Positions 17,704 through 62,741 of a DNA stretch of 64,000 nucleotides are shown one piece after another. Under the pieces are notes generated by a model. It made no database searches. It was not told where the DNA came from and was given only the letters and a program-made list of their open reading frames with translations. Position 1 is the stretch's first letter. The number at the start of each line of letters is the position of its first letter. A program made the position numbers and the translations under genes. This DNA comes from Streptomyces sp. NBC_01237 (lineage in GTDB: Bacteria > Actinomycetota > Actinomycetes > Streptomycetales > Streptomycetaceae): positions 744,001 to 808,000 of the forward strand of contig NZ_CP108509.1 in assembly GCF_035917275.1 (NCBI RefSeq). Reading direction: 5' to 3'.

Positions 17704-17784
17704 TCACCGCTCCGTTCTGGAATTCGTGGTTTCCACAGGGGACAGCATCGACGCCTCCGATACGGCTCGATGTGAATCCGGTTG

Positions 17785-28050: not shown

Positions 28051-28076
28051 CGAGAATTCCCCCACAGCACCGGCCA

Positions 28077-28256
28077 TCACCGCGCGCTCTTCGGACGCAT
28101 GTCCGTCCACAGCTCCTCGATACGACCCAGGCATTCGGCCCTCTCCGCCGGCTCGCCCACCACCGTCCAGCCGTCCGGGATTCGTCGACCGGCGCGCCAG
28201 ATCGAGTACTGCTCTTCAATGTTGCGGACAACTACATATGCGCCAGGATTTTCCAT
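28077..28256 (-). CDS. MbtH-like protein
   Basis: This 59-residue protein carries the full family signature: YSIWRAGRRIPDGWTVVG, the second conserved stretch ECLGRIEELWTDMRP, and three conserved Trp. MbtH-like proteins bind and stabilise NRPS adenylation domains. It sits 43 bases after the piperazate gene and touches the loading NRPS gene (TGATG). As the only MbtH in this window, it could also serve the second NRPS line. Confidence 0.95.
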   Translation of the reverse strand: MENPGAYVVVRNIEEQYSIWRAGRRIPDGWTVVGEPAERAECLGRIEELWTDMRPKSAR

Positions 28257-28299
28257 GATTCCTCGTCCAAGTTCCAGTCAGCTGGGGCTGAGGAGCGGT

Positions 28300-43900: not shown

Positions 43901-46900
43901 CGCCGAGCGGCTCGTGTGCGCGCTGTTCGCCGAGATCCTCACCCTGCCGGCGGTCGGTGCGGACGACGACTTCTTCGAGCTCGGCGGCCATTCCCTGCTG
44001 GCCATCAGGCTGGTGAACCGGCTGCGCGAGGTGCTGGACGACGGGATCGGGATGCGTACGGTCTTCGAGTCGCCGACGCCCGCCGCACTCGCCGAGAGGT
44101 TCGGGGACACGGGGGCCGGCCGCGGCCCGCTGCGGCCCCGGCCACGCGGGGACGTACTGCCGCCGTCGTTCTCCCAGCTACGTTTCTGGCTGCAGGGCGA
44201 GCTGGCGGAGGGAGCCGCCTCGCACACCGTCACGACCGCCCTTCGGCTGTCGGGTCCGCTGGATGCCGGGGCGCTGTCGGCGGCACTCCGGGACGTGGTG
44301 ACACGGCACGAGAGCCTGCGCACCGTCTTCCCGGTCACCGATGGCGTGCCCAGTCAACTGGTGCTGAACGACGCCGAGTTCGACCTCACCGTGCGGGAGG
44401 TGGCGAAGCGGGACGTCGAGGCGGCGGTGGTCGCGGCCTCGGAGCACGACTTCGACCTGGCACGGGAGAGACCGGTGCGGGCGGAGCTCTTCGCCTGCGC
44501 CCCCGAGGAGCATGTCCTCGCCATCACGATCCACCACATCGCCTTCGACGGCTGGTCCGCCGCACCCTTCCTCCGCGACCTCTCCGCGGCCTACGCCGCC
44601 CGGCTGCGGGGGCGGACTCCCGACTTCCCGGAACTGCCCGTGCAGTACGCCGACTTCACTCTGTGGCAGCGTGAGGAGCTCGGGGAAGCGGACGACCCCG
44701 ACAGCCCCCTCGCCCGGCAACTCGCCCACTGGAGCGGCACGCTGGCCGGCGCTCCCGAGGAAATCGCGCTGCCCGCCGACCGGCCACGCCCCGCCGTCGC
44801 CACCCACCGCGTCGGCACGGTGCCGTTCCGGCTCGCCCCGCAGGACCACGCGCGTGTCACCGCCCTGGCGCGGAAGCACGGTGCGAGCGTGTTCATGGTG
44901 CTGCACGCCGCGCTGGCGGTCCTGCTGCGGCAACTCGGCGCCGGGACGGACGTTCTCGTCGGCAGCCCGGTCGCCGGACGCGCCGACAGCGGTCTCGACG
45001 ACCTGGTCGGCTGCTTCGTGAACACCGTGGTGGTACGCACCGACGTCTCCGGGGATCCGGACTTCGGCGGTCTGCTCGACCGCGTCCGCACCGAGGTCCT
45101 CGCCGCGCTGGAGAACCAGGACGTGCCCTTCGAGCAGGTCGTGGACGCCGTCGACCCGGCGCGGTCGGCGGCCCGGCACCCGCTCTTCCAGGTCATGCTG
45201 AGTCTGCAGAACAACGCGGCCGGCGCCGTGGAACTGCCGGGCCTCCACGTCGGCAGGCTCGATCACGGCCGGTACCGGACCGTTCCCTTCGACCTGCTCC
45301 TCGATCTCACCGAGTCCGACGGGGGCCTGGACGGCACCCTCGTCCACGCCCACGACCTCTTCGACCACGCCACCGCGGAACGCCTCGCCGGGTACTTCAC
45401 CACCCTCCTCGCCGACGCGGCGGCCCGTCCCACCCGGCCGGTGCGGCAGTTGGACGTCCTGTCCCCCGCCCAGCGGCACACCGTCCTCGCCCGGTGGAGC
45501 GGTCCGGCGGCCGGTGCGCGGCCGCCGACCGGTTCGGTGCCGCAGTGGTTCCGGGATCAGGCCGCCAGGACACCCGACGCGGCGGCGGTGCTCCACGGGG
45601 ACCGCCGGATCGCGTACGGGGAGCTCGACGCGCGGGTGGACCGGCTGGCCGGGCATCTGCGGAAGCTCGGTGCCGGCCCCGAGCGGCTGGTCGCCGTGGC
45701 CATGAACCGCACTCCCGACCTTCTGGTCGCCCTCCTCGCCGTGCACCGGACCGGTGCCGCGTACCTCCCGGTCGATCCGGACCATCCCAGGGACCGGGTG
45801 GCGACGGTGCTGTCCGAGGCCGCGCCGCTCCTGGTGCTCTCGGACCGCGCCACCCGCGACACGCTCGGCACCGACGACTGGCTCGCCCTGGACGACCCCC
45901 GGCTCGTCGCCGCACTCACCGCCGGGGCCGGTGGCGACGGCACGGTCCCGAACGGGGAGATCCCGGCCGACTCCACGGCGTACGTCCTCTACACCTCCGG
46001 TTCGACGGGCCGGCCGAAGGGGGTCGTGGTCACCCACGGCAATGTCGCCCATCTGCTGGCCGCCATGCGGGACCGGCTGCCGCTGGGTCCCGCCGACCGG
46101 CTGCTGGCCGTGACGACCGTCGCCTTCGACATCGCCCACCTGGAACTCCTCCTGCCCCTGCTCCACGGCGCGGCCGTCGTCCTCGCCTCTCCCGACGAGG
46201 TGCGCGAGCCGCACGCCCTCGGCCGGCTGATCGGACGGCACGGGGTCACCGCCGTCCAGGCGACGCCCTCCCTGTGGTCCGGCCTCGTGGCGGAGGTACC
46301 CGACGCGGTCCGGGGGCTGCGCGTCCTGGTCGGCGGCGAAGCGCTGCCCCCCGCTCTGGCCGGCGGTCTCGCCGCCCTGGCAGCGGAGGTCACCAACGTG
46401 TACGGGCCCACCGAGACGACCATCTGGTCCCTCGCGGCACCGATCGGCCCGCACAACGCGGAGCGTCCACCGCTCGGCTCCCCGCTGGGCGGGACCCGGG
46501 TGTACGTCATGAACGAGGCGCTGCGGCCGGTGCCCGTGGGGGTGCCGGGCGAGCTGTACATCGGGGGTGCGGGTGTGGCCCGAGGCTATCTCGGCCGTCC
46601 GGGGCTGACCGCCGAGCGCTTCGTCGCCGATCCGTACGGGCCGTCCGGCACCCGCCTGTACCGCACCGGCGACCTGGTCCGGTGGACCCCGGAAGGGGAA
46701 CTCGACTTCCTCGGGCGCACCGACGACCAGGTGAAGCTGCGTGGCTTCCGTATCGAGCCCCGCGAGGTCGAAGCGGCCCTGGACCGGCACCACCACGTCA
46801 TCCGCAGCGCCGTCGTGGTGCGCGAGGACCGGCCGGGCGAGCGCCGGCTCGTCGCCTACGTGGCACCCGTCCGGGGCGCGGGCACCGCCGACGGGCTCGT

Positions 46901-48704
46901 CCCCGAACTCACCGCGTGGGCGCGGCGGGCGCTGCCGCCGTACATGGTCCCCACCGTCGTCGTGCTCCCCGACGGGCTTCCCCTCACGCCCAACGGAAAG
47001 CTCGACCGGTCCGCTCTGCCCGCCCCGCACGGACCCGCCTCCCCCGCCCGTGAGGCCCGGGGGCCGAACAGCCCCGCGGAGAGGCTCCTGTGCGAACTGT
47101 TCGCCGCCATCCTCGGACGGCCCGACGTCCGCGTCGAGGACGATTTCTTCGAGCTGGGCGGCGACAGCATCGTGTCGATCCGGCTGGTGTCCCGGGCCCG
47201 CTCACGAGGTCTGGCCATCTCCACTCGGGACGTCTTCCGGTACCGGACCGTCGCCGAACTGGCCGTCCACGCGAAGGTGCGGACGCCCGCGGCGGGCGCG
47301 GCGACGGGACCCGCCCCGGCGTCGTCGGCCGGCGAGGTGCCGCTCACCCCGATCGTCCACTGGCAGCGCGAGCGGGGCGGCCCCGTCGACGGCTTCCACC
47401 AGTCCGTGCTCGTACGGACCCCGGCGGACCTGTCCCTGCCACGGCTTCGGGCGCTGGTCCAGTCGCTGCTCGACCGGCACGACGCGTTGCGGATACGGCT
47501 GACGCGCGCCTCCACGTGGCGCCTCGATGTCCTGCCGCGCGGTGCGGTCGACGCGGCCGGACGCGTCGTACGGATCGACGCGGGCGGCCCGGCCGCCGGG
47601 AAGCTCGCGGACCTGGTCCGCGCCGAGGCGGACGCGGCACGACGGCGTCTGGCGCCCGGAGACGGGAACATGCTCCAGGCGGTGTGGTTCGACGCGGGTC
47701 CCGGCCGGGCCGGCCGGCTGCTCCTGATGATCAACCACCTCGTCGTGGACGGCGTTTCGTGGCGGATCCTCCTGGAGGACCTGAGCACCGGCGGCGCCCA
47801 GCGGACGACGGGGCCGGACTTCGCGCCCGTCTCGTTCGCCGACTGGGGGCGCCGACTGGAGCGCGAGGCGCGCGGGCGGGTGTCGGAACTCCCCTTCTGG
47901 CTCGGGCTCGCCGAAGGGGCGGAGGATCTCGTCGAAGGTGCGGGCCTCGTGGCCGCCCGTGATGTCGAGGGCTCGAAGCACACCGTCACCCGGATCCTTC
48001 CCGCCGACCGGACGGAGCCGCTTCTGACCCGCGTGCCCGCCCGGCTCGGCGTCGGGGTGAACGCCGTGCTGCTCGGCGCGCTGAGCACGGCCGCGGGGCA
48101 CTGGCGTACGGCACCGGTCCCCGGTGGTGCCTCCGACGGCGCGGCGGCCCGCGGCGACGCGCCGTTCCTCGTGGACGTGGAGGGACACGGCCGCGAGGAG
48201 ATCACGGGCGACCTCGACCTGTCGGCGACCGTGGGCTGGTTCACCAGCATGTTCCCCGTGCGGCTCCCGGGGCGGCCGGACGATCTCGAAGGAACCGTGC
48301 GGGCCGTGGACGGCCAGCTCGGGAGCATGCCCGACAAGGGGCTCGGCTTCGGTCTGCTGCGCCATCTCGATCCGGAGACCGCGCCCGTGCTCGGGGCACT
48401 GCCCCGGGCGCAGATCCTGTTCAACTACCTGGGCAGGTTCGACCGGCCGGACGAGTCCGACTGGGGCCTGGCACCGGAAGCCGGCGCGGTCGCCGGAGGC
48501 GGCGACCCCGAGATGCCCCTGACGCATCTCCTGGAGGTGTCCGCGATCGTCCACGACCGCGGGGACGGGCCGGAACTGCACATCACCTGGGCGTATCCGA
48601 AGGCCGTCCTGGAGCGGCCCCGGGTGGAGGCCCTGGCCGACGCCTGGTTCGAGGCCCTGGACACCCTGACCACACAGACCGGCGAACCGGGAGAGACGGC
48701 GTGA
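40944..48704 (+). CDS. NRPS, two modules with epimerase: C-A-PCP-C-A-PCP-E
   Basis: The 2586-residue product starts at ATG 40944; GTG 40989 is an alternative. Domains: C (HH at 143-144, D148), A (code D-A-Y-F-W-G-V-T-F-K, like branched Val/Ile codes), PCP (Ser about 1017, GGHSL), C (HH at 1197-1198), A (code D-I-L-Q-V-G-V-I-W-K, close to the glycine code DILQLGLIWK), PCP (Ser about 2075, in the GGDSI form typical before E), E (2130-2570; [10 protein letters not shown] with the first His replaced by Asn; NYLGRFD). The product so far would be N-MePhe-(Val/Ile)-X with X epimerised. An epimerase after a glycine-type A domain is contradictory, so X is probably a chiral small or unusual residue. 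The stop overlaps the next GTG. Confidence 0.9.
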
Positions 48705-51700
48705 CCGCATCAGATCGCACCCACGGGCGGACGTCGAGACCGGCGCCGCTCCAGCAAGGGCTGTTCTTCCACACGGCGTTCGACACCGACGGCCAGGACA
48801 TCTACACCATCCAGCTGGCACTGGACTTCGAGGGCCCGGTCGACCCCGTTCTTCTGCGAGAGGTCTGCCAGGTCCTCCAGGACCGGCACGACAGCCTGCG
48901 TTCGGGGTTCCGTACGGACGCGTCGGGCGCGCCCGTACGGTTCGTGGCAGCCCGGGTCGAGCCGGCCTGGCGGACGGCCGACCTCACCGGGACGGCGCCC
49001 GGCGACCGGGAGGCCGAGGCCGCGCGGCTGGTCGAGGAGGAGCGGCGGCGGCGCTTCGACACCGCCCGGCCGCCGCTGATCCGCTTCCTGCTGATCCGGC
49101 TGGACGACACCCGGTGGCGCTTCGCGTTGACGAACCATCACATCATTCTTGACGGCTGGTCCACCTCGATCCTCCTCGACGAGCTGTTCCGGCTGTACGA
49201 CGCCGGTGCCGGTGCCGCGGCGGCGGACCCGCTGCCTGCCGCCCCCTCGTACACCTCCTATCTGGACTGGCTCGGCGAGGTCGACCACGAGTGGTCCCGT
49301 GACGCCTGGGCGGAGGCGCTCTCCGGGATCGAGGGGCCGACGCTGGTGGCTCCGCGGGCGCGGGGCACGGTGGTGCCCGAACGGGTGGTGCGCAGACTGA
49401 GCGCCGCGCGCACCGCCGCGCTGACGGACCGGGCGCGCGCGGCGGGGGTCACACTCGGCACGGTGATGCAGGTGGCCTGGGGGCTGGTGCTGCGGCAGCT
49501 GACCGGGCAGGGCGACGTGCTCTTCGGGATGACGGTGTCGGGGCGGGCCGCCGAGGTCGACGGCGTCGAGACCATGGTCGGCCTCCTCATCAACACCGTT
49601 CCGGCGCGGGTGCGGATCGGCCCGCGGGACACGCTGCTCGATCTCCTCGAACGGGTCCAGGACGAGCAGCTCGACCTGTTCGAGCACCACCACGTCGGGC
49701 TGACGGAGATCCAGCAGCAGGCGGGCTTCGGGGCCCTGTTCGACACCACGACCGTCTTCGACAACTATCCGATGGACACGGGCGAACGCCGTCTGGGCGA
49801 AGCACTTCTCGTCGATGTCACGGGGTTCGACGCCACCCACTATCCGCTCTCCCTGATCTGCACTCCGGCCGAGCGACTGGGCATACGGATCGATTTCCGG
49901 CCCGATCTGCTCGGGCGCGGGACGGTGGAGGGGATCGCCGGGCGGCTCGAACGGATCCTGGAGGCGATCGCCGAGGATCCGCACCGTGCGGCCGGCAGCC
50001 TGCCGGTCCTTTCGGACGGCGAGCGCCGACAGGTGCTGGAGGAATGGAACGCCACCGACCGCCCGGTGTCACCGGCCACGCTTCCCGGCCTGATCGAGGC
50101 GCGAGCCGCGCGGATCCCGCGGCGGCCCGCCCTCTCGCACCAGGGGATGACCCTCGACCACGACGAGCTCAACCGCCGGGCGAATCGTCTGGCGCGCGTG
50201 CTGCTCGCCGAAGGTGCGGGACCGGAGACCCGGGTGGCCCTGGCCCTGCCGAGGTCCGTGGACATGGTCGTCGCCCTGCTCGCCGTGCTCAAGACCGGGG
50301 CCGCCTATGTGCCGGTCGACGTGCGCTACCCGGCCGACCGGGTGGCGCGGATGTTCGGCGACGCGCGGCCCCGGCTCGCCGTCGTCACCGAGGCGACCGG
50401 GGGGGTGCTGCCGGAGGGGACGGTCGCGCTCGTCCTGGACGACCCCTCCGTGGCACGGCGCGTCCAGGAGCAGGAGGAGACGGACATCGTGGACGCGGAG
50501 CGGCCGGGACCGCTCCTCCCCCGGCACCCCGCCTACGTCATCTACACCTCGGGCACCACCGGCGTCCCCAAGGGCGTGGTCGTCGAGCACGCGAACGCCG
50601 TCAACTTCGTGGCGACCGTCGAGGACCATTTCGGCGCCGACGGCATGGCGCGGGTCCTGGCGTCCACCTCGCTCAGCTTCGACGTGTCGGTCTTCGAGAT
50701 CGTCACGACCCTCGCGCTCGGCGGCCATCTGGAGCTGGTGGACGACCTGTTCGCACTGCTCGAACGGGACGGCTGGGAGGGGAGCCTGGTCAGCGGCGTT
50801 CCCTCGGCAATGGCGAGCATGCTGGCGGGCGACGCCTTCGAGGTGTCGGCACGGCACGTGGTGCTCGGCGGCGAGGCGGTGCCGCACGCCCTGCTGCGCG
50901 AGCTTCGGGAGCGGGTGCCCGGCTGTGCGGTCACCAACATCTACGGCCCCACCGAGGCGACCACCTACTCGACGTGGTGGCGCAGCGGCGAGCGGGACGC
51001 CGACGGCGATCCGCCGATCGGCCGGCCGGTCCCCAACTCCCGGATGTACGTGCTGGATCCCTGGCTCCAGCCGGTCGCGGTGGGGCAGCCGGGAGAGCTG
51101 TACATCGCCGGCGCGGGCGTCACCCGCGGCTATCTGAACCGGCCGGCGCTGTCCTCGGAGCGCTTCGTGGCCTGTCCGTTCGGCGCGCCCGGCGGCCGGA
51201 TGTACCGCACGGGCGACCGGACGCGGTGGCGGGCCGATGGGCAGCTGGAGTACCTGGGGCGGCTCGACGGCCAGGTGAAGGTCCGTGGCTTCAGGATCGA
51301 ACTCGGCGACGTGGAGGCCGCTTTGCTGCGGCACGGGAGTGTGGCGCAGGCCGTCGCGGTCGTACGGGAGGACCGGGCGGGAGACCGCAGGCTGGTCGCG
51401 TACGCCCTGGCGGCGGAGCAGGGCACGGTGCTCGACGGCGCGGAGCTGCGGCGTTTCACCCGTGACACGCTGCCGGAGCACATGGTGCCGTCGGCGGTGG
51501 TGCAGCTGGAGCGGTTCCCGCTGATGCCGAACGGCAAGCTGGACCGGTCGGCGCTGCCTGCCCCCACGTACGGCGCCACCGTCCACCGGGGGCCGGCCCA
51601 CGCGCACGAGGAGCCGCTGTGCGCGCTGTTCGCCGAGGTGCTCGGGGTGGAGCGGGTCGGACCGGACGACGGCTTCTTCGATCTGGGCGGGCACTCCCTG

Positions 51701-52561
51701 CTGGCGACCCGGCTGGTGAGCCGGGTGCGTGCGGTCCTGGGCACCGAGCTGTCCGTCCGAGCCCTGTTCGAGGCGCCGACCCCGGCGGCCCTCGCACGCC
51801 GGCTCGACGGCGAGGGGGACGGCACCGGCCTGGACGTGCTGCTGCCGCTGCGGACCGGCGGACGTCTGCGGCCGCTGTTCGCGGTGCACGCGGCGAGCGG
51901 CCTCGCCTGGCCGTACGCCCGGCTGCTGCCGCACCTGGACCCGGATGTGCCGCTGTACGGCCTGCAGGCACCGAGTCTCGCCGATCCGGACGGCGGTGCG
52001 CGCAAGCCGGAGGAGCTGGTACGGGAGTACGCGCGGCGGATCCGGGAGGTGCAGCCGGAGGGTCCGTACCGGCTGCTCGGGTGGTCGGTCGGCGGCACCC
52101 TCGCCTACGCGGTGGCCGCGGAGCTGGTGGAGCGGGGGCACCCCGTGGAGTTCGTGGCCCTGCTCGACTCGTACCCGGCGCCCGAGGAGGGTCTGCCCGA
52201 CTGGGAGGAGACGCACCGGCACGTGGCCGGGTCGGCCGGGTTCGCCGCGGACGGGACGCCACCGGAGCAGATCGCGCTGCTCGGGGAGCGGGCGGTGGAG
52301 GGCGCACGGCTGGCGGTGCGGTCGGCGGTGGACGCGCTGCGGGCCGCTCCGGCACGGACACGGGGTGTGCATGTGCTCCACTTCCGCGCCGCGTCGGACG
52401 GGCCGGGCACCGCCCCGGAGGTCTGGCAGGCGTACGGCGGCGGGCGGTTCTCGGCCTTCGACGTCGCGTGCGGCCACTACGGGATGCTGGATCCCGTTCC
52501 GCTCGCCTCGATCGGCGCGGTGCTGACGGACAGAGCCGTGGAAGGGACGGCAGGGCGATGA
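48701..52561 (+). CDS. NRPS, terminal module C-A-PCP-TE
   Basis: The 1286-residue product begins at GTG 48701, overlapping the previous stop (GTGA). Domains: C (HHIILDG, His146-147, Asp151; expected to accept the D-residue made by the upstream E), A ([27 protein letters not shown]; code D-V-F-S-V-G-I-T-Y-K), PCP (Ser999) and TE (GWSVGG, Ser1129; His1259 in CGHYGM). I cannot assign the code firmly; its start DVFSV reminds me of piperazate-type codes, unverified. It should add the fourth residue and release the second peptide. It converges with the sulfate-activation operon. Confidence 0.9.
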
Positions 52562-52642: not shown

Positions 52643-53971
52643 TCAGAAGTCCCAGCCGTCGTCGGCGGCGGTGCCCTTGACCGGTTCGGGAACGGCGGAG
52701 GAGGCGCCGACCATGCCCGCGGTCAGGGTGGTGCCGTCACCGGGGTCGATCAGGATGAACGAGCCGGTGCGGCGCGAGTCGGCGTAGAAGTCGACGGGCA
52801 GCGGCTCCGCGGTGCGGATCCTGATGCGGCCGATGTCGTTGGCGACGAGCCGGCCCGGGTGGGGGTGCGGGGACAGGTCGTCGAGGGTGAGCCGGGAGGG
52901 GATGCTCTCGACGATGGCCTTGACCGTGCGGGTGCCGTGCTTGAGCAGCACCCGGTGCCCGACGGTCAGGTCCTGGTCGGCCACATGGCAGACGGTCGCC
53001 TCGATGTCCTGGGTGGCCGCCGGGGCGTCCGCCGTCGGCGCGATCAGGTCACCACGCGAGACGTCGATGTCGTCCTCCAGCAGGACGGTCACCGACTGCC
53101 CGGTCCAGGCGACGTCGACCCGCCTGCCGAGCAGGTCGATACCGGAGATCTTCGTCGTACGGCCGGACGGCAGGATCGTGACCGACTCGCCGACGCGGAA
53201 GGAACCGGCCGCGATCCGGCCGGCGTAGCCGCGGTAGTCGGCGTGTTCGGCGGTCCGGGGGCGGATGACGTACTGCACCGGCAGCCGGGCTTGGCGGTGG
53301 GCCGGGCCGTGGCCGACCGGGACCGTCTCCACGTGGTCGAGCACCGTCGGGCCGCTGTACCAGTCCATGACCGCCGACGGCTCCACCACGTTGTCCCCGG
53401 CCAGCGCCGAGATCGGTATCGCGGTGACCTCGGGGATGCCCAGCTCGGCCGCGTACGCCGTGAACTCCTCCACGATCGCGTCGAACACCGGCTCGCGGTA
53501 GCCGACCAGGTCCATCTTGTTGACCGCCAGGGCGACATGCGGAACGCGCAGCAGTGCGGCGATGGCGGCGTGACGGCGGGTCTGCTCGACCACACCGTTG
53601 CGGGCGTCGACCAGGATCACGGTCAGTTGGGCGGTGGAGGCACCGGTGACCATGTTGCGGGTGTACTGCACATGCCCGGGTGTATCGGCCAGGATGAACC
53701 GCCGCTTCGGGGTGGCGAAGTAGCGGTAGGCGACATCTATGGTGATGCCCTGTTCCCGTTCGGCGCGCAGACCGTCGGTGAGCAGGGCGAGGTCGGGCGT
53801 GTCCTGGCCACGGCCGGCCGACGCCCGCTCCACGGCCTCCAGCTGGTCGGCCAGAACGGACTTGGAATCGTGCAGCAGCCGGCCCACCAGCGTGGACTTG
53901 CCGTCGTCGACGGAGCCGGCGGTGGCGAACCGCAGAAGGGTGGTGGTCGGGAGTTCCGTGGTCCTGGTCAT
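52643..53971 (-). CDS. cysN: Sulfate adenylyltransferase subunit 1 (GTPase)
   Basis: The 442-residue product is an EF-Tu-like GTPase: GSVDDGKSTL (G1), DTPGHVQYTRNM (G3) and NKMDL (G4). With CysD it makes adenosine phosphosulfate from ATP and sulfate, using GTP hydrolysis to drive the reaction. It lacks a fused APS kinase, which is encoded separately upstream. Its ATG lies two bases after the CysD stop. It is the last gene of the nine-gene operon beginning at 60860. Confidence 0.95.
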   Translation of the reverse strand: MTRTTELPTTTLLRFATAGSVDDGKSTLVGRLLHDSKSVLADQLEAVERASAGRGQDTPDLALLTDGLRAEREQGITIDVAYRYFATPKRRFILADTPGHVQYTRNMVTGASTAQLTVILVDARNGVVEQTRRHAAIAALLRVPHVALAVNKMDLVGYREPVFDAIVEEFTAYAAELGIPEVTAIPISALAGDNVVEPSAVMDWYSGPTVLDHVETVPVGHGPAHRQARLPVQYVIRPRTAEHADYRGYAGRIAAGSFRVGESVTILPSGRTTKISGIDLLGRRVDVAWTGQSVTVLLEDDIDVSRGDLIAPTADAPAATQDIEATVCHVADQDLTVGHRVLLKHGTRTVKAIVESIPSRLTLDDLSPHPHPGRLVANDIGRIRIRTAEPLPVDFYADSRRTGSFILIDPGDGTTLTAGMVGASSAVPEPVKGTAADDGWDF

Positions 53972-53973: not shown

Positions 53974-54909
53974 TCAGAAGTACCCTTCGCGCTTGCGGTC
54001 CTCCATGGAGGCCTCGGAGAGCTTGTCGTCGGCACGTGTCGCGCCCCGCTCGGTCAGCCGGGACGCGGCGATCTCCGCGATCACCTGGTCCAGGGTCACC
54101 GCGTCGGACTCGACCGCGCCGGTGCAGGACATGTCACCGACCGTGCGGTAGCGGACGAGCCGCTTCTCGACGGTCTCGCCGTCCTTCGGGCCGCCCCACT
54201 TCCCCACGGGCAGCCACATCCCGGAGCGCTGGAAGACCTCGCGCTCATGGGCGAAGTAGATCTCCGGCAGCTCGATGCCCTCGCGGGCGATGTAGTGCCA
54301 CACGTCCAGCTCCGTCCAGTCGGACAGCGGGAAGACGCGTACATGTTCACCGGGGGCGTGCCGGCCGTTGTAGAGCTGCCACAGCTCCGGACGCTGGCGG
54401 CGCGGGTCCCACTGCGAGAACTGGTCCCGGAGGCTGAACACCCGTTCCTTGGCCCGGGCCTTCTCCTCGTCACGACGGCCGCCACCGAGGACCGCGTCGA
54501 ACCGCTCCGACTGGATCCTCTCCGTCAGCGGCAGCGTCTGCAGCGGATTACGGGTCCCGTCGGGGCGCTCCTTGAGCGTGCCGCGGTCGATGTAGTCCTG
54601 TACGCAGGCCACATGGAGACGCAGCCCGTGGGCCGCCACCACACGGTCCCGGTGCTCCAGGACCTCCGGGAAGTTGTGTCCGGTGTCCACGTGCAGCAGC
54701 GCGAACGGCACAGGGGCGGGGGCGAACGCCTTCAGAGCGAGGTGCAGCATGACGATGGAGTCCTTGCCGCCGGAGAAGAGGATCACCGGCCGCTCGAACT
54801 CACCCGCCACCTCACGGAGGATGTGCACCGCCTCCGACTCCAGCGCGTCCGCGTGGGTCAGCGTGTACGGGTTGTCGGTCCTCCCGGACCGTTGCGTCGC
54901 CGTCGTCAT
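53974..54909 (-). CDS. cysD: Sulfate adenylyltransferase subunit 2
   Basis: The 311-residue product has the PP-loop LFSGGKDSIVMLHLAL and the conserved HVDTGHNFPEVLEHRD, GGGRRDEEKARAKER and WDPRRQRPELWQLYN stretches of CysD, the catalytic ATP sulfurylase subunit. The ATG at 54909 overlaps the CysC stop (ATGA), so the three sulfate-activation genes are coupled. Together they make PAPS, the donor for sulfotransferases or for reductive assimilation. Confidence 0.95.
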   Translation of the reverse strand: MTTATQRSGRTDNPYTLTHADALESEAVHILREVAGEFERPVILFSGGKDSIVMLHLALKAFAPAPVPFALLHVDTGHNFPEVLEHRDRVVAAHGLRLHVACVQDYIDRGTLKERPDGTRNPLQTLPLTERIQSERFDAVLGGGRRDEEKARAKERVFSLRDQFSQWDPRRQRPELWQLYNGRHAPGEHVRVFPLSDWTELDVWHYIAREGIELPEIYFAHEREVFQRSGMWLPVGKWGGPKDGETVEKRLVRYRTVGDMSCTGAVESDAVTLDQVIAEIAASRLTERGATRADDKLSEASMEDRKREGYF

Positions 54910-55475
54910 GCCAGCCCCTTCTCCCGCAGCAGCGCGACAAGCGCCTGCGCCGACTCCGTCCTGCTCTGCTCGTGCGCCGGGATCCGCAGATCCGGTGCGG
55001 CCGGCGGCTCGTACGGATCGTCGACGCCGGTCAGTCCGGTCATCTCGCCCCGCGCCTGCCTGGCGTACAGACCCTTCACATCGCGTACGGCGCACACCTC
55101 GACCGGCGTCGCCACATGCACCTCGACATACGCGGTACCGGCGGCCTCGTGCCGCTCGCGCACCGCTTCGCGGGCGTCCGCGTACGGGGCGATGACCGGT
55201 ACCAGCACCGTCACACCGTAGGAGGCGAGCAGCTGCGCGACGTAGCCGATGCGGCACACGTTCGCCTCCCGGTCCTTGCGGGAGAAGCCGAGGCCGGCCG
55301 TCAGGTGTGCGCGCAGCTCGTCACCGTCCAGGATGTGCACCCGGCGCCCGGCGGAGCGCAGTTCGGCGGCCGCGGTCAGCGCGATCGTGGTCTTCCCCGC
55401 GCTGGGCAGGCCGGTCAGCCACACCGTCGCGCCGACGGCGCCACCGTTGTTGAGTTCGTCGGTCATGTGCTCCAT
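54906..55475 (-). CDS. cysC: Adenylylsulfate kinase
   Basis: The 189-residue product has the Walker A motif GLPSAGKTT, the APS-binding DGDELR segment and FSRKDREANVCRIG, all diagnostic of APS kinase, which phosphorylates APS to PAPS. ATG 55475 is used; ATG 55466 would also fit. A 140-base gap with a hairpin separates it from the upstream LnmK-like gene, so the cysCDN block could be partly independent. Confidence 0.95.
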   Translation of the reverse strand: MEHMTDELNNGGAVGATVWLTGLPSAGKTTIALTAAAELRSAGRRVHILDGDELRAHLTAGLGFSRKDREANVCRIGYVAQLLASYGVTVLVPVIAPYADAREAVRERHEAAGTAYVEVHVATPVEVCAVRDVKGLYARQARGEMTGLTGVDDPYEPPAAPDLRIPAHEQSRTESAQALVALLREKGLA

Positions 55476-55615: not shown

Positions 55616-56596
55616 TCACCCGCCGTCCGAGGGGCGGATGCCCGCCGCCCCGACCTCGATCTCGATCGCGGTGACGGCTATCAGCTGCCCGGTCGCCGTG
55701 TCGCGCAGGGCCATGTCGGCCACCTCGGCCTCCGAGGACCCGGTGCTCCGCCACCTGCGTACGGTGACCTCGAAGACCGTGCCGGGGTCGGCGTTGCCGA
55801 AGTAACCGATCTTCTGGTCGATCACCCTGCGCCGCAGGAACTGTTCGTCCGTCCGTCCCAGCGAGCGCCACAGCCGCAGCAGCATCGTGTCGAAGACGGC
55901 GAAATACGAGGCGAAGTACATCAGTCCGGCACCGTTGAGGTCGCGCACGACGTCCAGTGCGTAGGGGAAGGTCCGGGGCTGCCCGGCCTCCTGGAATCCG
56001 GGCGGCCCCGTGGGGTGGAAGCTTCCGGTGGCCCGGGCCCGGCCCACCAGGGACCGGGGGGAGTAGGCGTTCGGAAGCGGCGCCAGCTCCTGGTAGCTGA
56101 AGTCCGGCGGTGTCACCTGGGCGAGAGACCGGTTGCTGCCCGCGGTGGTGCGGGCGACCCACCGGTTGAAGTTCTCCGCGTAGAGGCAGTGCGGGTGCGG
56201 GTGTTCGTACACTTCCGCCGGGTCCAGTGGTCCGTCCGGCAGCTCCAGGCCGGCGGGGGCCAGCCGGTGCAGCGTGATGACCGACTGACTGCCGAACTGG
56301 AAGGCCCGGGAGTCGACCCGGAGTTCGTCGCCGAAGGTGAGTCCGTGGGGATGGACGACATCTCCGCCGCGCACATGGAAGTAGTAGAAGGACAGGTAGG
56401 CGGGGTCTCCGGCGGCGGTCCGGGCCGCGTGTACGTTGACCCGGCACGACTCGCTCACCACCTCCCAGGTCCAGTCCCCGATCCGGCCGAACACCGTGGA
56501 GCCGCCACTGCACATTCCCGGCGCGACGACCACATGACGGGAGACCCCGGCGTCGGCCGGGACCAGAGCACCCGGTGCGGTGTGAAGAGTGGTCAT
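55616..56596 (-). CDS. LnmK-like acyltransferase/decarboxylase (Pnap_2097 family)
   Basis: The 326-residue product has the double hot-dog look of LnmK: VVVAPGMCSGGSTVFGRIGDWTW at the start, LSFYYFHVRGG, HGLTFGDELRVDSRAFQFG, and NFNRWVARTTAGSNRSL in the middle. LnmK of leinamycin loads methylmalonyl from CoA onto an ACP and decarboxylates it to propionyl-ACP. Its ATG overlaps the aminotransferase stop (ATGA) behind GGAGG, and an ACP gene sits two genes upstream, giving a natural partner. It probably makes propionyl-ACP (or another short acyl-ACP) for the aldehyde-forming enzyme. Which acyl group is used cannot be seen. Confidence 0.75.
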   Translation of the reverse strand: MTTLHTAPGALVPADAGVSRHVVVAPGMCSGGSTVFGRIGDWTWEVVSESCRVNVHAARTAAGDPAYLSFYYFHVRGGDVVHPHGLTFGDELRVDSRAFQFGSQSVITLHRLAPAGLELPDGPLDPAEVYEHPHPHCLYAENFNRWVARTTAGSNRSLAQVTPPDFSYQELAPLPNAYSPRSLVGRARATGSFHPTGPPGFQEAGQPRTFPYALDVVRDLNGAGLMYFASYFAVFDTMLLRLWRSLGRTDEQFLRRRVIDQKIGYFGNADPGTVFEVTVRRWRSTGSSEAEVADMALRDTATGQLIAVTAIEIEVGAAGIRPSDGG

Positions 56597-57720
56597 ACCT
56601 CCGCCTCCTTTCGGACCTGACGCGGCCGCCCGGCCCCGGCCGTGGCCGTCCGCCCTGCGGAGCGCCACTCGTCCGCCGCGGCGAGGAACTGGTCGTTGTC
56701 CTCGGCGGAACCGATCGACACACGCACGCCCACGTCCCCGAACGCCCGTACCGCGATGCCCCTGCCCGCACACCACTCACCGAAGCCGACGGCGTGCCGG
56801 CCCAGTCGCAGCCAGAGGAAGTTCGCCTGGCTGTCCGGGATCTCCCAGCCGCGGCGCACCAGGGTGTCCCGTACGCGAGTGCGTTCCGCGACCGTGCTGT
56901 CGACGCGCCGCAGCAGCTGCTCCTCAAGTCCCAGGGCCGCGACGGCCGCCTGCTGCGCGACGGTGTTCACCGCGTAGGGGAGGCATGCCCTGCGCAGCCT
57001 TTCGACGACATGGGCATCCCCCACCAGGTATCCGGTCCGCAGTCCGGCCAGTCCGTAGGCCTTCGAGAACGTACGCAGCACGACCAGGTTCGGATGCGCG
57101 GCGCACAGCCGCAGGGCACTGGGCACCGCCGGCCCGCGGACGTACTCGTAATAGGCCTCGTCCACGGCCACCAGGCAGGTCGGTGGTACGGACTCGATGA
57201 ACTCCCGGAGCTCTTCGTGACCGACGACCGTGCCCGTCGGATTGTTGGGGTTGCAGATGATGACGAGCCTGGTCCGGGAGGAGATCCGGTCGGCCATGGC
57301 CCGCAGGTCATGGGTCTCGTCGGCCAGCGGCACCTGTACGGATTCCACGCCGGCCAGGGCGGCGAGCGTGGGGTAGACCTCGAACGACGGCCAGGCGTAC
57401 ACGGCTTCGGCGCCAGGATCGGCGATCGCCTGGAACAGTGTCTGCAGGAGGGCCACGGAACCGGCACCGGCCACGATGCGGTCCTCCTCGATCCCGTGGG
57501 ACCGGGCGATGGCATCCACCAGCGGTCCGCAGCCGGGGTCCGGATAGCGGTTCACCAGGGATCCGGCCCGCTCGATCACCTCGACGATGCCGGGCAGAGG
57601 GGTGTGCGGCGACTCGTTCGCCGACAGCGGGCGAGCTCGCTCGGTCGACCCGTGGACACCGTCGGACGGCTTGTAGGAGGCAACGGTTTCGAGAACCGCG
57701 CGCAGCGGTGGATAAGACAT
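56593..57720 (-). CDS. HisC-type PLP aminotransferase
   Basis: The 375-residue fold-type I aminotransferase shows LSANESPHTPLP, the NPNNPTGT loop, DEAYYEYV, and the PLP lysine in TFSKAYGLAGLRTGY. Sequence style is histidinol-phosphate aminotransferase, but the gene has no histidine-operon context. Nikkomycin NikT is an ACP fused to such a domain, and here an ACP gene lies directly upstream. The likely role is to convert the 2-oxo acid made by the aldolase and hydratase into the alpha-amino acid used by an NRPS. Confidence 0.88.
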   Translation of the reverse strand: MSYPPLRAVLETVASYKPSDGVHGSTERARPLSANESPHTPLPGIVEVIERAGSLVNRYPDPGCGPLVDAIARSHGIEEDRIVAGAGSVALLQTLFQAIADPGAEAVYAWPSFEVYPTLAALAGVESVQVPLADETHDLRAMADRISSRTRLVIICNPNNPTGTVVGHEELREFIESVPPTCLVAVDEAYYEYVRGPAVPSALRLCAAHPNLVVLRTFSKAYGLAGLRTGYLVGDAHVVERLRRACLPYAVNTVAQQAAVAALGLEEQLLRRVDSTVAERTRVRDTLVRRGWEIPDSQANFLWLRLGRHAVGFGEWCAGRGIAVRAFGDVGVRVSIGSAEDNDQFLAAADEWRSAGRTATAGAGRPRQVRKEAEV

Positions 57721-57789
57721 GGGACTCCCGGTGGAGGGGGACGCCGCCGCGCTCGGTCGTGCGAACGGCGCCCGAATCGACTGTGGGGC

Positions 57790-58020
57790 TCAGCCTCCCG
57801 GCCGCCGTTCCGCCATCAGACGGGCCACGTCGGCGAGGGTGCCGGCGTCCAGCAGTTCGTAGTCGTGGACCTCGATGCCGAGCCGCTCGTTCAGTGCGGT
57901 GGCGAGTTCCAGCACCGACAGGGAGTCCAGCCCGACCTCTTCACGGGTGGCCGTGGGCACGACATCCTCCTCGCGTACGTGCAGTTCGCCGACCAGGATG
58001 TCTTTGAGTACGTCGTACAC
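57790..58020 (-). CDS. Acyl carrier protein
   Basis: From GTG 58020 (GAGGGAAGAG upstream) this gives 76 residues with the phosphopantetheine site VGLDSLSVLEL and a normal four-helix length. A longer form from GTG 58083 would overlap the aldolase stop and add 21 unlikely residues. The carrier is probably loaded by the LnmK-like enzyme, and its acyl group reduced by the neighbouring aldehyde dehydrogenase, or used to hold an amino acid intermediate as in NikT. Confidence 0.88.
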   Translation of the reverse strand: MYDVLKDILVGELHVREEDVVPTATREEVGLDSLSVLELATALNERLGIEVHDYELLDAGTLADVARLMAERRPGG

Positions 58021-58075
58021 GACTGGCTCTTCCCTCGATGTCCTCGCCCGACCGGAAGCCGCGGGCTCGCGGCTC

Positions 58076-59113
58076 TCACGCACTACGAGCAGCCTTCAGG
58101 GCGAGGGCCACCTCGACGATGAGGTCCTCCTGGCCCGCCACGGCCTGCCTCTTGCCCAGTTCGAAGAAGACGTCACGCGGATCGACGTCCTCACGCCGCG
58201 AGATGTCCAGGACCCGGTTCTTGAACCCGGAGAACACTCCGGCCAGGCCGCTGACGACACTCACCGAGTCGATGGTGGGCGGTGCCGGCATGAGTTCGCG
58301 CTCGGCGATGTCGGCCGCGTCCAGCAGACCGTACAGGTCGATGCCCGTCGGGAAGCCCATCCGTTCCAGCACGGGCACCAGGACCTCGAGCTGGGTGTTC
58401 CCGGCGCCCGCTCCGAAACCCCGGGCGCAGGCGTCCAGGATGTCCGCACCCGCTTCCGCGGCGGCGATCGAGTTCGCGACCGCCATCCCGAGGTTGTTGT
58501 GGGCGTGGAACATCACCGGTACCTCGACGGCTTCCCGCATGGCGGCGACGCGCTCCGTGACATCGGCCGGCAGATAGTGGCCGGAGGAGTCCATGATGCC
58601 CACCGCGTTCGCGCCGAACTCCACCAGCCGGGCGCATTCATGAGCCAGCCGTTCGGGACTCGCCATATGACTCATCAGAAGAACGGCCTGGGCCTGGACC
58701 CCCTGCTCCCGGAGAAAGCCCACATGCCGTTCGGCGAGGTCCCCTTCGGTGCAGTGGGTGCCGATCCGCACCACATCCACCTGATGGGCGATGGCCCGCT
58801 CCAGGTCCGCGGTCGTACCCCATCCCGGCAGCATGAAGACGGCCATCCTGCTGTCGCGCAGGGACTCCCGCACGATCGACAGCATCTCGTCGTCACCGAG
58901 CCGGGACTGCCCGACCTGGAGGGAGGAGGCACCCAGACCGTTGCCGTGCCCCACCTCGACCATGGGAACGCCGGCGGCGTCCGCCGCCCTCGCATAGGAC
59001 CGCAGTTGTTCACGGTCCAGCTGGTGACGGACCGCGTGATGGCCGTCGCGCAGGGACGCGTCGTAGATGAGGACCGGCTTCCCGGCGCCGCCGGGAGATG
59101 CTGCTGCGCTCAT
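58076..59113 (-). CDS. 4-hydroxy-2-oxovalerate aldolase-type enzyme
   Basis: The 345-residue DmpG/MhpE-like protein has [16 protein letters not shown] (metal-binding Asp and catalytic Arg/His), [24 protein letters not shown] and [14 protein letters not shown] (metal-binding His-x-His). In catabolism it splits 4-hydroxy-2-oxopentanoate to pyruvate and acetaldehyde; the reaction is reversible. The ATG at 59113 overlaps the dehydrogenase stop, matching the usual channelling complex of the two enzymes. With carrier protein, aminotransferase and NRPS genes beside it, the aldol (building) direction is more likely, as for NikB of nikkomycin. Confidence 0.92.
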
Positions 59114-60003
59114 GACGTCTCCGTACCCGTGCTCGCCAGGCCGACCGCCGCGCACTGTTCGGCGACATGAACCGCGGCGGAGTTGATGATGTCGAGGTTG
59201 CCGGCGTACCGGGGAATGCGTCCGCCGGACGAAGTGACCTCCGCGGCGACGAACACCTTGCTCTCCTCCACGACACACGCGGTGATCCGGTAGCCCTTGG
59301 CGAAGGAGCGAACCTGGTCGGCCGCGGCCGTCACGGCCGCGTTCACCGACGCCGTGCCGAACCCCTCCCCCAGCATCGACATGGCGACCCGGAAGGTCGC
59401 CGGCGGCCGGGCCGGACTGACGTTGAGGATCGCCTTGACGTCCTTGACGCCGGTGAAGTCACGTACCGCGTCCTGTGTGGTCTCGACGTACTCGTCGAGA
59501 TTGAGCCGGGTGGAGCGCCCGACACTCGGACTGGCGGCCGTCGTGACGACCTCGACGTACTCGACCCTGTGTCCCTGGGTGATCGCGTGCAGGATCGGTA
59601 TCGACGCCTGGCCACCACAGCTGATCATGTTGATGTCGTCGCAGCTCAGGACCTCCGCCCCGTTCACGCTCGGAATCACCATCCGCCCGACCTTGCTCGG
59701 TGTCAGGTCCACGAGCTTCGTACCCGACAGGCTCAGGCGTTCCGCGTGCTCGGCATGGGCCATGGCGTTGGTCGCGTCGAACACGATGCCGAACGGCTGC
59801 GGGGCGTCCAGGAGGGACTCGATACCGCGCGTACCGATGGCAAGACCGAGTTCGGCCGCCTGCCGCAGGCCGGGCGTCTTTTCGTCGCGTCCCACGACCA
59901 GCCCGCAGTCGAGGTACTCGGAACGCATGATCTTCTCTGCCAGATCGACTCCGATGAGGCCGGCGCCGAGGACGGCCACGGGCAGGCGCCCGTTTCGCTT
60001 CAT
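59110..60003 (-). CDS. Acylating aldehyde dehydrogenase (DmpF/MhpF/NikA type)
   Basis: The 297-residue product has the NAD motif [13 protein letters not shown], the nucleophile Cys in [12 protein letters not shown], and [22 protein letters not shown]. It interconverts acyl-CoA and aldehyde in complex with the aldolase. In the building direction it would reduce an acyl-CoA or acyl-ACP to the aldehyde that the aldolase condenses with pyruvate or another 2-oxo acid. The ATG at 60003 is preceded by a GGGAAGGG box somewhat further upstream than usual. Confidence 0.92.
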
Positions 60004-60065
60004 GGCTGCATTGCCCTTCCCTCTCTAGAGATTCACCGAGATTCGCCTTGGGGCGCGTCGGTGGT

Positions 60066-60860
60066 CTACCTGTCGCCCACGTGAAGGGTGACGGTGCCCA
60101 GCCGGTCGAACTCGGCCACGAAGCTGTCGCCGGGACACATCGTGACCGCGGCGTGAAGGGCGCCGGTCATGATCAGCTGACCCGCTTCGAGCGTCACACC
60201 GTGCTCGCCGAGCACATTCGCCAGCCAGGCGACCACGGCGACCGGATCACCCAGGGCAGCGGCACCGGCTCCGGTCGCCACGAGTGCGCCGTTGCGGGAG
60301 AAGGCCATACCGACGAGGCGCACATCGCAGTCGTCGGGCAGGGCGACCGGAGGGCCGAGTACCACCGCTCCGTTCGACGCGAGGTCGGCGATGGTGTCCG
60401 CGAGCCGGATCCGCCAGTCCTCGATCCGGGAATCGACGATCTCCAGCCCCGCCATGACGTCGGAGATCGCCTCCCGTGCCGCGGCCACGGTGACACCGGG
60501 CCCCTTGAGCGACGTGCCGAGCCGGAAAACGATCTCCGCCTCGACCTTGGGCGCGATGAACGAGCCGCCCGGCGTGGTGGCTCCGTTCTCGTACACGGTC
60601 GAACCCAGCACCGGTCCGTAGTCCGGGGTACTGACACCGAACAGCTCCTGCATCGGGGCGGAGGTGAGTCCCGCCTTGTAGCCGACGACGGTGTCGCCGG
60701 CCGCTGTCAGCATCCCGACCAGTTCGCGCTGGATGGCGTATCCGTCGTGCATGTCCAGCGCGGGATGCTCGTCGGTGAAGGGAGGGATGGGGCGGCCCGT
60801 CGCACGTGATTCGTAGAGCGCCTTGGCCTTGACTCTGACATCGTCCACCGAGATGTTCAC
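60066..60860 (-). CDS. 2-oxopent-4-enoate hydratase family enzyme (MhpD type)
   Basis: From GTG 60860 (AGGAG four bases upstream) the product has 264 residues, normal for the family. Conserved features are GYKAGLTS, the metal-binding glutamates in PKVEAEIVFRLG, and the glycine-rich ALGDPVAVVAWLANVL. In meta-cleavage pathways it adds water to 2-hydroxypenta-2,4-dienoate; reversed, it would dehydrate a 4-hydroxy-2-oxo acid to a 2-oxo-4-enoate. It is the first gene of the nine-gene operon, so the operon promoter must lie in 60861-61160. Confidence 0.9.
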   Translation of the reverse strand: MNISVDDVRVKAKALYESRATGRPIPPFTDEHPALDMHDGYAIQRELVGMLTAAGDTVVGYKAGLTSAPMQELFGVSTPDYGPVLGSTVYENGATTPGGSFIAPKVEAEIVFRLGTSLKGPGVTVAAAREAISDVMAGLEIVDSRIEDWRIRLADTIADLASNGAVVLGPPVALPDDCDVRLVGMAFSRNGALVATGAGAAALGDPVAVVAWLANVLGEHGVTLEAGQLIMTGALHAAVTMCPGDSFVAEFDRLGTVTLHVGDR

Positions 60861-61625: not shown

Positions 61626-62741
61626 TCATCGGGTCGGGGTCTGCAGCCCGGCGGCCAGCCGCTCCCACTCCCTGGCGTAGTGACTCACCACTTCGGTGAG
61701 GGCTCTGGCGCAGTGCGGTGGGACGGCTGCCAGCAGCTGCTCGCCCGCCGCCAGCCCGTGGGCCTGGCCGTTGAGCCAGCGCAGGAGAGCGCGGCCGCTG
61801 TCCGTGAAGCGAATCGATGGATCGTTGGAGAGAACGTCCATGGCCCGCACCCGGATGCGCGCGGTCCCTCGCGAGGCGGGTTCCGGCGGAGTCGGACGGG
61901 AGACCGGGCCGGAGCATCGCGCGGGCGCCACGGCCACGAGCGCGGTGAGGGACGCGGAGTCCTCGTGCACGGCCGCCGCGGCCGGCACCTGCTCGTCCGA
62001 TTCGGGCACGGCCGTGCAGGACCGCAGTTCCTGCCGCAGGCGGTGCGCGGTGCTGACGGAGACACCGGCCTCCTGGGCCACTTCGCGCAGCGTCGCCCGG
62101 GGCCGCTCCGTCAACAGGGACCGCGCCTTCTCCCGGCGCTCCGGCATGTCGGCCGGGCGCGCCCGGCCGTCCCTGCCCACGCGGGCGACCGAGGGATTCG
62201 ACTGAGGAGATTCCTCAGTCGAACACCTCCCCCGTACTGCCCCTACCGTCTTCGGCGACACCCCTGTGACGGCGGCGATGGCCCGGTCCGACCAGTGGGG
62301 GTGGGTCGCGAGGATGCGCAGGACCGCCGCCTTGCGGTCCCCGAGTGTCAGGGGAAGGCCATGGCTGATGTTGGCCTGCACCGACCGGACGAACAGATCG
62401 GCCGACGCGCCCTCGACATAGCGGACCGTGATGCGGCGTTCCCCGCGCAGGATCGCGGCCCGCAGCCGGTGCATGCCGTCGACCACGCGTCCCGTGTCCC
62501 GGTGCACGAGGATCGGTTCGAACTCGGTCCCGCCCTCCGCCAGTGCCTGCGCATGGCCCTCGCTCAGACCTTCCAGTCGCGGCGAGTCCGCCGGCAGCAG
62601 GGATTCGACCGGCACTGTGTGAATCGTCGACTGCGGTGCGTCAAACAACTGTTCCACCCCTTCTGCTTGCGGTGCCCCTGGGCCGTGTCCGCAGGCGCCT
62701 TCACTGCGAGTCCTCGCCCCTCCGCGCATACGGGATCCCAC
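61626..62741 (-). CDS. StrR-type pathway-specific transcriptional activator (ParB-like fold)
   Basis: The frame encodes up to 371 residues; the true start could be GTG 62657 (VEQLFDAPQ), since neither site has a clear ribosome binding site. Family signatures are strong: PADSPRLEGLSEGHAQAL, ILVHRDTGRVVDGMHRLRAA, VQANISHGLPLTLGDRKAA, HPHWSDRAIAAVTGVSPKTV (helix-turn-helix), and a second helix-turn-helix-like LREVAQEAGVSVSTAHRLR. StrR, NovG and Tei15*-type proteins activate streptomycin, novobiocin and glycopeptide clusters. It probably controls the neighbouring operon, the second NRPS operon, or both. An operator-like site lies within its own coding sequence at 62196-62224. Confidence 0.9.
   Translation of the reverse strand: MGSRMRGGARTRSEGACGHGPGAPQAEGVEQLFDAPQSTIHTVPVESLLPADSPRLEGLSEGHAQALAEGGTEFEPILVHRDTGRVVDGMHRLRAAILRGERRITVRYVEGASADLFVRSVQANISHGLPLTLGDRKAAVLRILATHPHWSDRAIAAVTGVSPKTVGAVRGRCSTEESPQSNPSVARVGRDGRARPADMPERREKARSLLTERPRATLREVAQEAGVSVSTAHRLRQELRSCTAVPESDEQVPAAAAVHEDSASLTALVAVAPARCSGPVSRPTPPEPASRGTARIRVRAMDVLSNDPSIRFTDSGRALLRWLNGQAHGLAAGEQLLAAVPPHCARALTEVVSHYAREWERLAAGLQTPTR
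62196..62224. promoter_or_regulatory. StrR-type operator inside the regulator gene
   Basis: The site reads ATTCGACTG, 11 bases, CAGTCGAAC. The consensus known for StrR is GTTCGACTG-N11-CAGTCGAAC, so 17 of 18 half-site bases match and the spacer length is exact. The spacer itself is mostly palindromic. It lies in the stretch between the ParB-like domain and the second helix-turn-helix. Confidence 0.75.

Follow-up and report, generated by a model that had tools for sequence, protein, structure and literature searches.

In a 64,000-nucleotide stretch of Streptomyces sp. NBC_01237 (hereafter the window; C2:744001-808000 of a 10.19 Mb genome, whose nearest relative among the genomes compared, G410, is labelled as the same species), a run of six genes on the minus strand (60860..55616) encodes a hydratase, an acylating aldehyde dehydrogenase (DH), a pyruvate aldolase, an acyl carrier protein (ACP), a HisC-type aminotransferase and an LnmK-like protein. 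This block very probably represents a biosynthetic route built from repurposed enzymes. The best explanation, which we judge probable, is that the lower meta-cleavage pathway runs in reverse here, starting from an acyl group bound to a carrier, to make a non-protein amino acid for a neighboring nonribosomal peptide synthetase (NRPS). All six frames are open (L and G numbers used below denote the loci and genomes compared):

60066..60860, minus strand: hydratase, FAA_hydrolase / 2-oxopent-4-enoate hydratase-like; GTG start; K, E.E and E motif stretches kept
59110..60003, minus strand: acylating aldehyde dehydrogenase, DmpF/NikA type; SCGGQ motif kept
58076..59113, minus strand: pyruvate aldolase, DmpG/NikB type; DmpG_comm domain; Phe at BphI positions 87 and 290
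57790..58083, minus strand: ACP; GLDSL motif; alternative shorter start possible at 58020
56593..57720, minus strand: HisC-type aminotransferase; 51% identity to the aminotransferase half of a NikT-like fusion
55616..56596, minus strand: LnmK-like acyltransferase/decarboxylase; start overlaps the hisC stop

DH and aldolase overlap by 4 bases, aldolase and ACP by 8, and HisC and LnmK by 4, with gaps of 62 bases between hydratase and DH and of 69 bases between ACP and HisC. The first-pass annotation had described one coupled operon of six genes; all six are confirmed, but the interval that it gave (56593-60860) stops at HisC and leaves LnmK just outside.

Enzyme identities and conservation of the gene set

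The best NCBIfam model for the hydratase is 2-oxopent-4-enoate hydratase (238 bits, under the cut-off of 409). DH matches the acetaldehyde dehydrogenase (acetylating) model with 288 bits against a cut-off of 282, and the aldolase, which contains HMGL-like and DmpG_comm domains, matches the 4-hydroxy-2-oxovalerate aldolase model with 369 bits against 286. The LnmK-like protein (280 bits; cut-off 100) matches LnmK chains at 2.8e-86 over 296 residues, spanning both hot-dog domains, and the counterpart of LnmK Tyr62 (numbered along the chain), which we take to be an active-site residue, is a Tyr in 23 of 24 LnmK rows, the exception, L033, being a short call. RDG..H and HxH of the aldolase, SCGGQ of DH, the K, E.E and E stretches of the hydratase and GLDS of the ACP are likewise kept, and we presume these residues to have functional roles. 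The ACP is 44-45% identical to the ACP half of a NikT-like fusion, and HisC resembles the aminotransferase half of the same protein.

Homologs of LnmK were sought in 394 genomes of the family (17 matched at E <= 0.001, three of them weakly) and in a named genome collection (18 loci, 9 with the block), and homologs of DH in 392 genomes of the genus (169 matched). Fifteen loci drawn from these searches, the window included, were studied closely; G410 and Streptomyces sp. TSRI0281 (L024) were treated as one genome, with LnmK at an identical contig number and coordinates. DH and LnmK are likewise near each other in G512 and G635, which lie outside this set. Searching for the block elsewhere, as the first-pass annotation had proposed, recovered DH, aldolase, hydratase, LnmK and ACP together in 15 of 15 loci, and HisC in 11 (missing in L031, L032, L093 and L094). 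Because the same set occurs together in all 15 loci, the block is more than a chance arrangement. The ACP is a separate gene in 12 loci and is fused to the C-terminus of the aldolase in three (L030, L031, L096). Four aldolase-ACP fusions of 443-449 aa (P0001, P0002, P0003, P0006), combining HMGL-like, DmpG_comm and PP-binding domains, were found among the best 120 of 6162 protein-database matches to the L030 protein. A gene for a family-13 methyltransferase adjoins 9 of the 15 blocks. S. zaomyceticus and S. hydrogenans retain the whole cluster, from regulator through transporter, as does TSRI0281 over the part covered. No LnmK-DH-aldolase block is described in the titles and abstracts listed from the open literature searched, a scope that mostly excludes subscription papers.

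Since several of the 15 loci were found via LnmK, the DH search is the fairer test of linkage. All eight genomes with a DH at least 65% identical (that of the window included) have LnmK within ~3 kb, and of 26 further genomes with a DH of 45-62% identity, 25 are without LnmK and one (G396) has a 58-residue LnmK fragment with stops. The reading is muddied somewhat by one stop each in the extended frames of the LnmK matches of G590 and G366, and by short hydratase calls in L030 (227 aa) and L096 (146 aa).

This linkage bears on the possibility that the block does two jobs: LnmK and ACP would provide a propionyl group that caps or starts the peptide, and a different unit would arise from a CoA thioester through DH, aldolase, hydratase and HisC. 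LnmK-ACP pairs do serve differently elsewhere: in 8 of the 18 LnmK loci of the named collection (L034-L041, representatives checked), LnmK lies beside ACP, ketosynthase and 3-hydroxy-3-methylglutaryl (HMG)-CoA-synthase-type genes. Furthermore, SanN, the nikkomycin counterpart of DH, is reported to make its aldehyde from acyl-CoA, and without SanN the amino acid is no longer formed (PMC3520715). However, 3 of 15 loci have an aldolase-ACP fusion and the nikkomycin loci have the ACP joined to the aminotransferase, and LnmK accompanies DH in all eight genomes of the DH search though the neighboring assembly lines differ. We therefore regard a division of labor as rather unlikely.

Separation from catabolic enzymes and relation to nikkomycin

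Aldolase and DH trees were built from 58 rows each: 15 block loci, two nikkomycin loci, L072, 18 loci labelled catabolic (including L134 and L079), and two further sets of loci. The first of these, group B, comprises twelve loci with a DH-aldolase pair and no hydratase (L076, L077, L081-L084, L086, L087, L089, L090, L097, L098); the second, group C, comprises ten Streptomyces loci with hydratase, DH and aldolase of the biosynthetic branch (L075, L078, L080, L085, L088, L091, L099-L102). In both trees, the block, nikkomycin, L072, group B, group C and L079 sequences (41 rows) stand apart from the other 17 with support of 100/99, L134 attaching between the two sides. The trees were rooted at midpoint and the tool warned of long branches, so that ancestry is suggested rather than shown.

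The same division is seen at three positions of the aldolase. Positions 87, 89 and 290 of BphI correspond to 88, 90 and 291 of DmpG, counted on the DmpG chain, and the offset of one agrees with what we take to be the BphI numbering of an Arg (16/17). Catabolic aldolases have Leu87 and Tyr290 in 16 of 16 cases, L134 and L079, with Phe and Val at position 290, being counted apart. All 15 block aldolases have Phe87, Leu/Ile89 and Phe290, all twelve of group B have Phe87, Leu89 and Phe290, and those of group C have Phe290 (10/10) and mostly Ala89 (8/10); the nikkomycin aldolases have Leu87, Phe89 and Phe290. A review reports that in BphI the Y290F variant loses the preference for the 4S compound, that the L87W/Y290F and L87N/Y290F variants take the 4R instead of the 4S compound, and that L89A accepts longer aldehydes in addition to acetaldehyde and propionaldehyde, whose use stays at the wild-type level (PMC3962088). 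Tyr290 is the residue that sets stereochemistry, and the Phe87/Phe290 combination of the block resembles the engineered pair that flips it. Read against these variants, and on the assumption that Phe at 87 acts like Trp, the block aldolases are predicted to form 4R products from a short aldehyde, and those of group C to take longer aldehydes. The three-position pattern offers a simple sequence test that split biosynthetic from catabolic members in this sample, though databases name both alike, and it hints at stereochemistry and chain length.

The genome also has a catabolic set of its own. Its other aldolase (C1, L004) is encoded with a DH, two hydratase-family genes, 3-hydroxyanthranilate 3,4-dioxygenase, 2-hydroxymuconic semialdehyde dehydrogenase and kynureninase, the last three all above their model cut-offs. 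As the first-pass annotation had noted, no ring-cleavage dioxygenase is recognized with the block: among 278 genes called in the 15 block stretches, in the flank L003 and in the two nikkomycin stretches, queries with catechol 2,3-dioxygenase and 3-hydroxyanthranilate dioxygenase found no homolog at 1e-3, a search that does not extend to LigB-type enzymes. The same queries found 3-hydroxyanthranilate dioxygenase in 4 of 16 comparison loci, and TIGR03213, the one extradiol model run against the whole genome of NBC_01237, gave a single weak match far off, at C2:1277297. Conversely, none of the gene calls searched in the 16 comparison loci (DH matches of 38-44%; L134, which proved to lie in a biosynthetic cluster, is among them) is a homolog of LnmK, ACP or HisC at 1e-8.

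A catabolic role of the block, in breaking down an aromatic or steroid compound, with the NRPS genes as accidental neighbors, is accordingly very improbable, even though its enzyme families are typical of meta-cleavage pathways and 12 block hydratases are closest to one from a catechol 2,3-dioxygenase operon (L146). The two dioxygenase queries found no ring-cleavage homolog in the block stretches, the genome has a separate catabolic operon, trees and residues both separate the block from catabolic enzymes, and a pathway of that kind has no use for LnmK, ACP or HisC. Compared with the lower meta-cleavage systems DmpE/F/G, BphH/J/I and HsaE/G/F, the block shares the three enzyme families and the intermediates, the direction being proposed opposite; it differs in having no recognized ring-cleavage partner, in its separate tree branch and in Phe for Tyr at BphI position 290. 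The steroid version, HsaE/G/F, reportedly uses the same C6 compounds as those proposed here. The hydratases have a more mixed history. In their tree (the 146-aa call of L096 left out), the 12 rows next to L146 are separate from L030 and L094, which group with L033 and L134, indicating either repeated recruitment of the hydratase or its exchange. The LnmK proteins of the blocks are not quite one clade either, since L033, where no DH or aldolase was recognized, falls inside.

Among the closest known parallels is nikkomycin. Two loci (L073, L074; hmmscan on L073 only) are called nikkomycin loci because they encode two mutase-subunit homologs, an ACP-HisC fusion and an amine-oxidase homolog in the nik order; gene names and order are those that we take to be the nik ones. 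Block DH and aldolase are ~60% and 75% identical to their counterparts there, and, viewed from the catabolic side, the nikkomycin pair and L072 fall inside the block group with support of 99/92 for the aldolase and 83/54 for DH. The trees therefore place the nikkomycin enzymes within the LnmK-linked group firmly for the aldolase and weakly for DH. The proposal that meta-cleavage enzymes have been recruited to build an amino acid in the manner of nikkomycin is thus supported by this grouping away from catabolic enzymes, by the separate location of the genome's catabolic set and, within the scope of the two dioxygenase queries, by the result that the blocks do not lie beside ring-cleavage dioxygenases, the situation that the first-pass annotation had named as refuting.

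The two systems (nikkomycin: NikA/SanN, NikB/SanM and NikT, making hydroxypyridylhomothreonine) share the DH-aldolase branch, the ACP, the HisC-type aminotransferase and a scheme leading from acyl group to aldehyde, aldol and amino acid; according to a title in the reference list of PMC3146816, SanM produces the 4-hydroxy-2-oxo acid through its interaction with SanN. They differ in that the window has an unfused ACP and aminotransferase, the two being fused in nikkomycin loci, in that mutase subunits were not found in the window, and in its starting acyl group, which is predicted to be aliphatic. The block is also without an aryl-CoA ligase or adenylating enzyme that would load picolinate, and LnmK occupies that place. 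Hydratase and LnmK had been regarded as additions to the nikkomycin scheme. For the hydratase this holds, as none was seen in the sequence covered around the two nikkomycin loci, against 15 of 15 block loci. For LnmK it appears not to: because the nikkomycin pair branches inside the LnmK-linked group, firmly for the aldolase and weakly for DH, the reverse looks like the better description.

Proposed route and its product

In the route that we propose, LnmK would load the methylmalonyl group of methylmalonyl-CoA onto the small ACP and remove its carboxyl group, which gives propionyl-S-ACP. DH would convert this thioester into propanal, handed on inside a DH-aldolase complex, and the aldolase would join propanal and pyruvate into 4-hydroxy-2-oxohexanoate, predicted to be (4R). 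The hydratase, acting as a dehydratase, would yield 2-oxo-4-hexenoate, which HisC would turn into 2-amino-4-hexenoate; were the hydratase idle, the product would be 4-hydroxynorleucine instead. Dehydration is hinted at by the presence of the hydratase in all 15 blocks and its absence from the two nikkomycin stretches, the nikkomycin amino acid keeping its hydroxyl. A 2-oxo acid is hinted at by the family-13 methyltransferase, which weakly resembles a 2-keto-acid methyltransferase (best NCBIfam match for the one member scanned, 2-ketoarginine methyltransferase, 52 bits against a cut-off of 425). We lean slightly towards a C6 product; a 4-ene rather than a 4-hydroxy compound has a little under an even chance.

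The propionyl unit is suggested by LnmK. In leinamycin-type clusters, where LnmK-LnmL(-LnmM) serve propionyl beta-branching, LnmK also lies beside a discrete ACP. The block differs in having neither an HMG-synthase nor a decarboxylating ketosynthase (the partner LnmM is not recognized in the window block but is present in L034-L041), and its propionyl group is predicted to be reduced, not condensed. LnmK homologs elsewhere have been proposed to make propionyl-ACP: LrgK, by analogy with LnmK, would transfer methylmalonyl to an ACP and decarboxylate it (PMC9396626), and an LnmK-type enzyme with methylmalonyl-CoA also appears in a title cited by PMC8666670. These descriptions, and the match to LnmK over 296 residues, argue against the same route with a C2 unit, in which the LnmK homolog would take malonyl-CoA, giving acetaldehyde and hence 2-amino-4-pentenoate (allylglycine) or 4-hydroxynorvaline. 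The C2 route would fit the scores of DH and aldolase, which exceed the cut-offs of the acetaldehyde and 4-hydroxy-2-oxovalerate models, and Leu/Ile at position 89 suits C2 and C3 aldehydes equally; we consider it unlikely.

A quite unlikely alternative is that the route ends at a 2-oxo or 2-hydroxy acid taken by the NRPS, with HisC serving another step. It would account for the four block loci that lack HisC, but the window and ten other loci have HisC, whose gene shares 4 bases with lnmK and whose sequence is similar to the aminotransferase half of NikT.

Several observations weigh against an amino acid made from propionyl-S-ACP, or against parts of that proposal. SanN is reported to use acyl-CoA, not an ACP thioester, and the ACP could therefore hold a later intermediate. 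The direction known for hydratases of this family is hydration. The incomplete distribution of HisC counts here as well, as does the next best aminotransferase of the genome, which is nearly as similar to HisC (47%) as the NikT half is (51%). No family-13 methyltransferase gene was found in the window. In 14% of bootstrap trees of DH the block forms one clade apart from nikkomycin, and Phe89 in the nikkomycin aldolases, despite their bulky aldehyde, implies that position 89 follows no simple rule. Finally, the adenylation (A) domain codes of the window's NRPSs (DAWTVAAVC, DAYFWGVTF, DILQLGVIW and DVFSVGITY, read at what we take to be the code positions) single out no module; they are nearly unchanged in the relatives covered, one of which reads DILQLGVVW.

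If the block does make 2-amino-4-hexenoate, it would constitute a second route to this amino acid, unrelated to that of ilamycin. There, the identical compound is built from acetate on a type I polyketide synthase, IlaE, as indicated by labelled acetate and gene deletions, followed by oxidation and amination (PMC5577134). The block is a new, LnmK-fed variant of the nikkomycin-type route; in the trees, LnmK-fed clusters surround the nikkomycin branch. More broadly, it is possible, though we would hold it with distinctly less than even confidence, that catabolic DmpF/DmpG-type enzymes gave rise in actinobacteria to a whole family of aldol pathways fed by carrier proteins. The acyl loader would then be interchangeable: LnmK in the window, beta-ketoacyl-ACP synthase III (KAS III) in group C and in L072, and an aryl ligase in nikkomycin, which would itself be a branch of the LnmK-fed form. 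On the same view, the window would make 2-amino-4-hexenoate independently of the ilamycin route, with an aldolase whose natural L87F/Y290F pair is like the engineered BphI switch. The block would provide concrete genes for making gamma-hydroxy and gamma,delta-unsaturated amino acids, would show how a degradation pathway may be reversed by adding a carrier protein and a loader, and several uncharacterized Streptomyces clusters with the same DH-aldolase pair would become predictable.

Related loci and neighboring genes

All twelve group B loci encode a BioF-like pyridoxal-phosphate enzyme, a cupin/JmjC-like protein, an ornithine-cyclodeaminase homolog and an HpcH/HpaI-type protein, and represent an uncharacterized pathway. 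Group C loci carry HpcH/HpaI-type and MaoC-type genes, with KAS III in six of ten and a family-32 ACP in five. In L134, hydratase, family-13 methyltransferase, aldolase and DH lie beside 4-hydroxyphenylpyruvate dioxygenase-like, lactate-oxidase-like, prephenate dehydrogenase and CmlS-like halogenase genes; this locus is probably biosynthetic rather than catabolic on account of these neighbors, suggesting a hydroxyphenylglycine-type peptide cluster. L033 (Actinomadura sp. 7K507) has LnmK, a family-13 methyltransferase and a hydratase beside NRPS genes.

Around the block, the window encodes (C, condensation; T, carrier; MT, methyltransferase; TE, thioesterase domain):

33764..35041, minus strand: major facilitator superfamily (MFS) transporter; adjoins the NRPS also in S. 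zaomyceticus and S. hydrogenans
35543..39847, plus strand: NRPS 1, A-A-MT-T
39910..40959, plus strand: luciferase-like monooxygenase, MupA/Atu3671 family
40944..48704, plus strand: NRPS 2, C-A-T-C-A-T and a third condensation-type domain
48701..52561, plus strand: NRPS 3, C-A-T-TE
52643..53971 (cysN), 53974..54909 (cysD) and 54906..55475 (cysC), minus strand: synthesis of adenosine phosphosulfate and phosphoadenosine phosphosulfate (PAPS); between LnmK and NRPS
61626..62741, minus strand: putative cluster regulator; helix-turn-helix matches; homologs in L024-L027

The plus-strand NRPS genes converge on the minus-strand block. The block had been placed between NRPS genes and a StrR-type regulator, both of which sides are occupied as described, except that cysC-cysD-cysN intervene after LnmK and that the regulator, presumably StrR-like, gave helix-turn-helix matches only in Pfam and no NCBIfam match at 1e-10. 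The PAPS genes are kept in 4 of 15 block loci. No sulfotransferase that would use PAPS is present among the window genes scanned with Pfam, and a PF00685 search gave a single match, barely above cut-off, at C2:851358. NRPS 1 has two consecutive A domains, of which the first has a core motif that looks unusual on inspection, followed by the methyltransferase and carrier domains and then by the gene for the luciferase-like monooxygenase. By its motif, we take the third condensation-type domain of NRPS 2 to be an epimerase.

A second NRPS-type cluster on the minus strand (16267-30183) encodes a lysine/ornithine N-monooxygenase with an FMN-binding domain, A-T, C-A-T and C-A-T-TE proteins, an MFS transporter, and proteins resembling dimethylarginine dimethylaminohydrolase (DDAH) and 2-oxoglutarate-Fe(II) oxygenases. 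A gene of the hydroxyisourate hydrolase/transthyretin family (62868-63230) adjoins the regulator, also in L024-L026.

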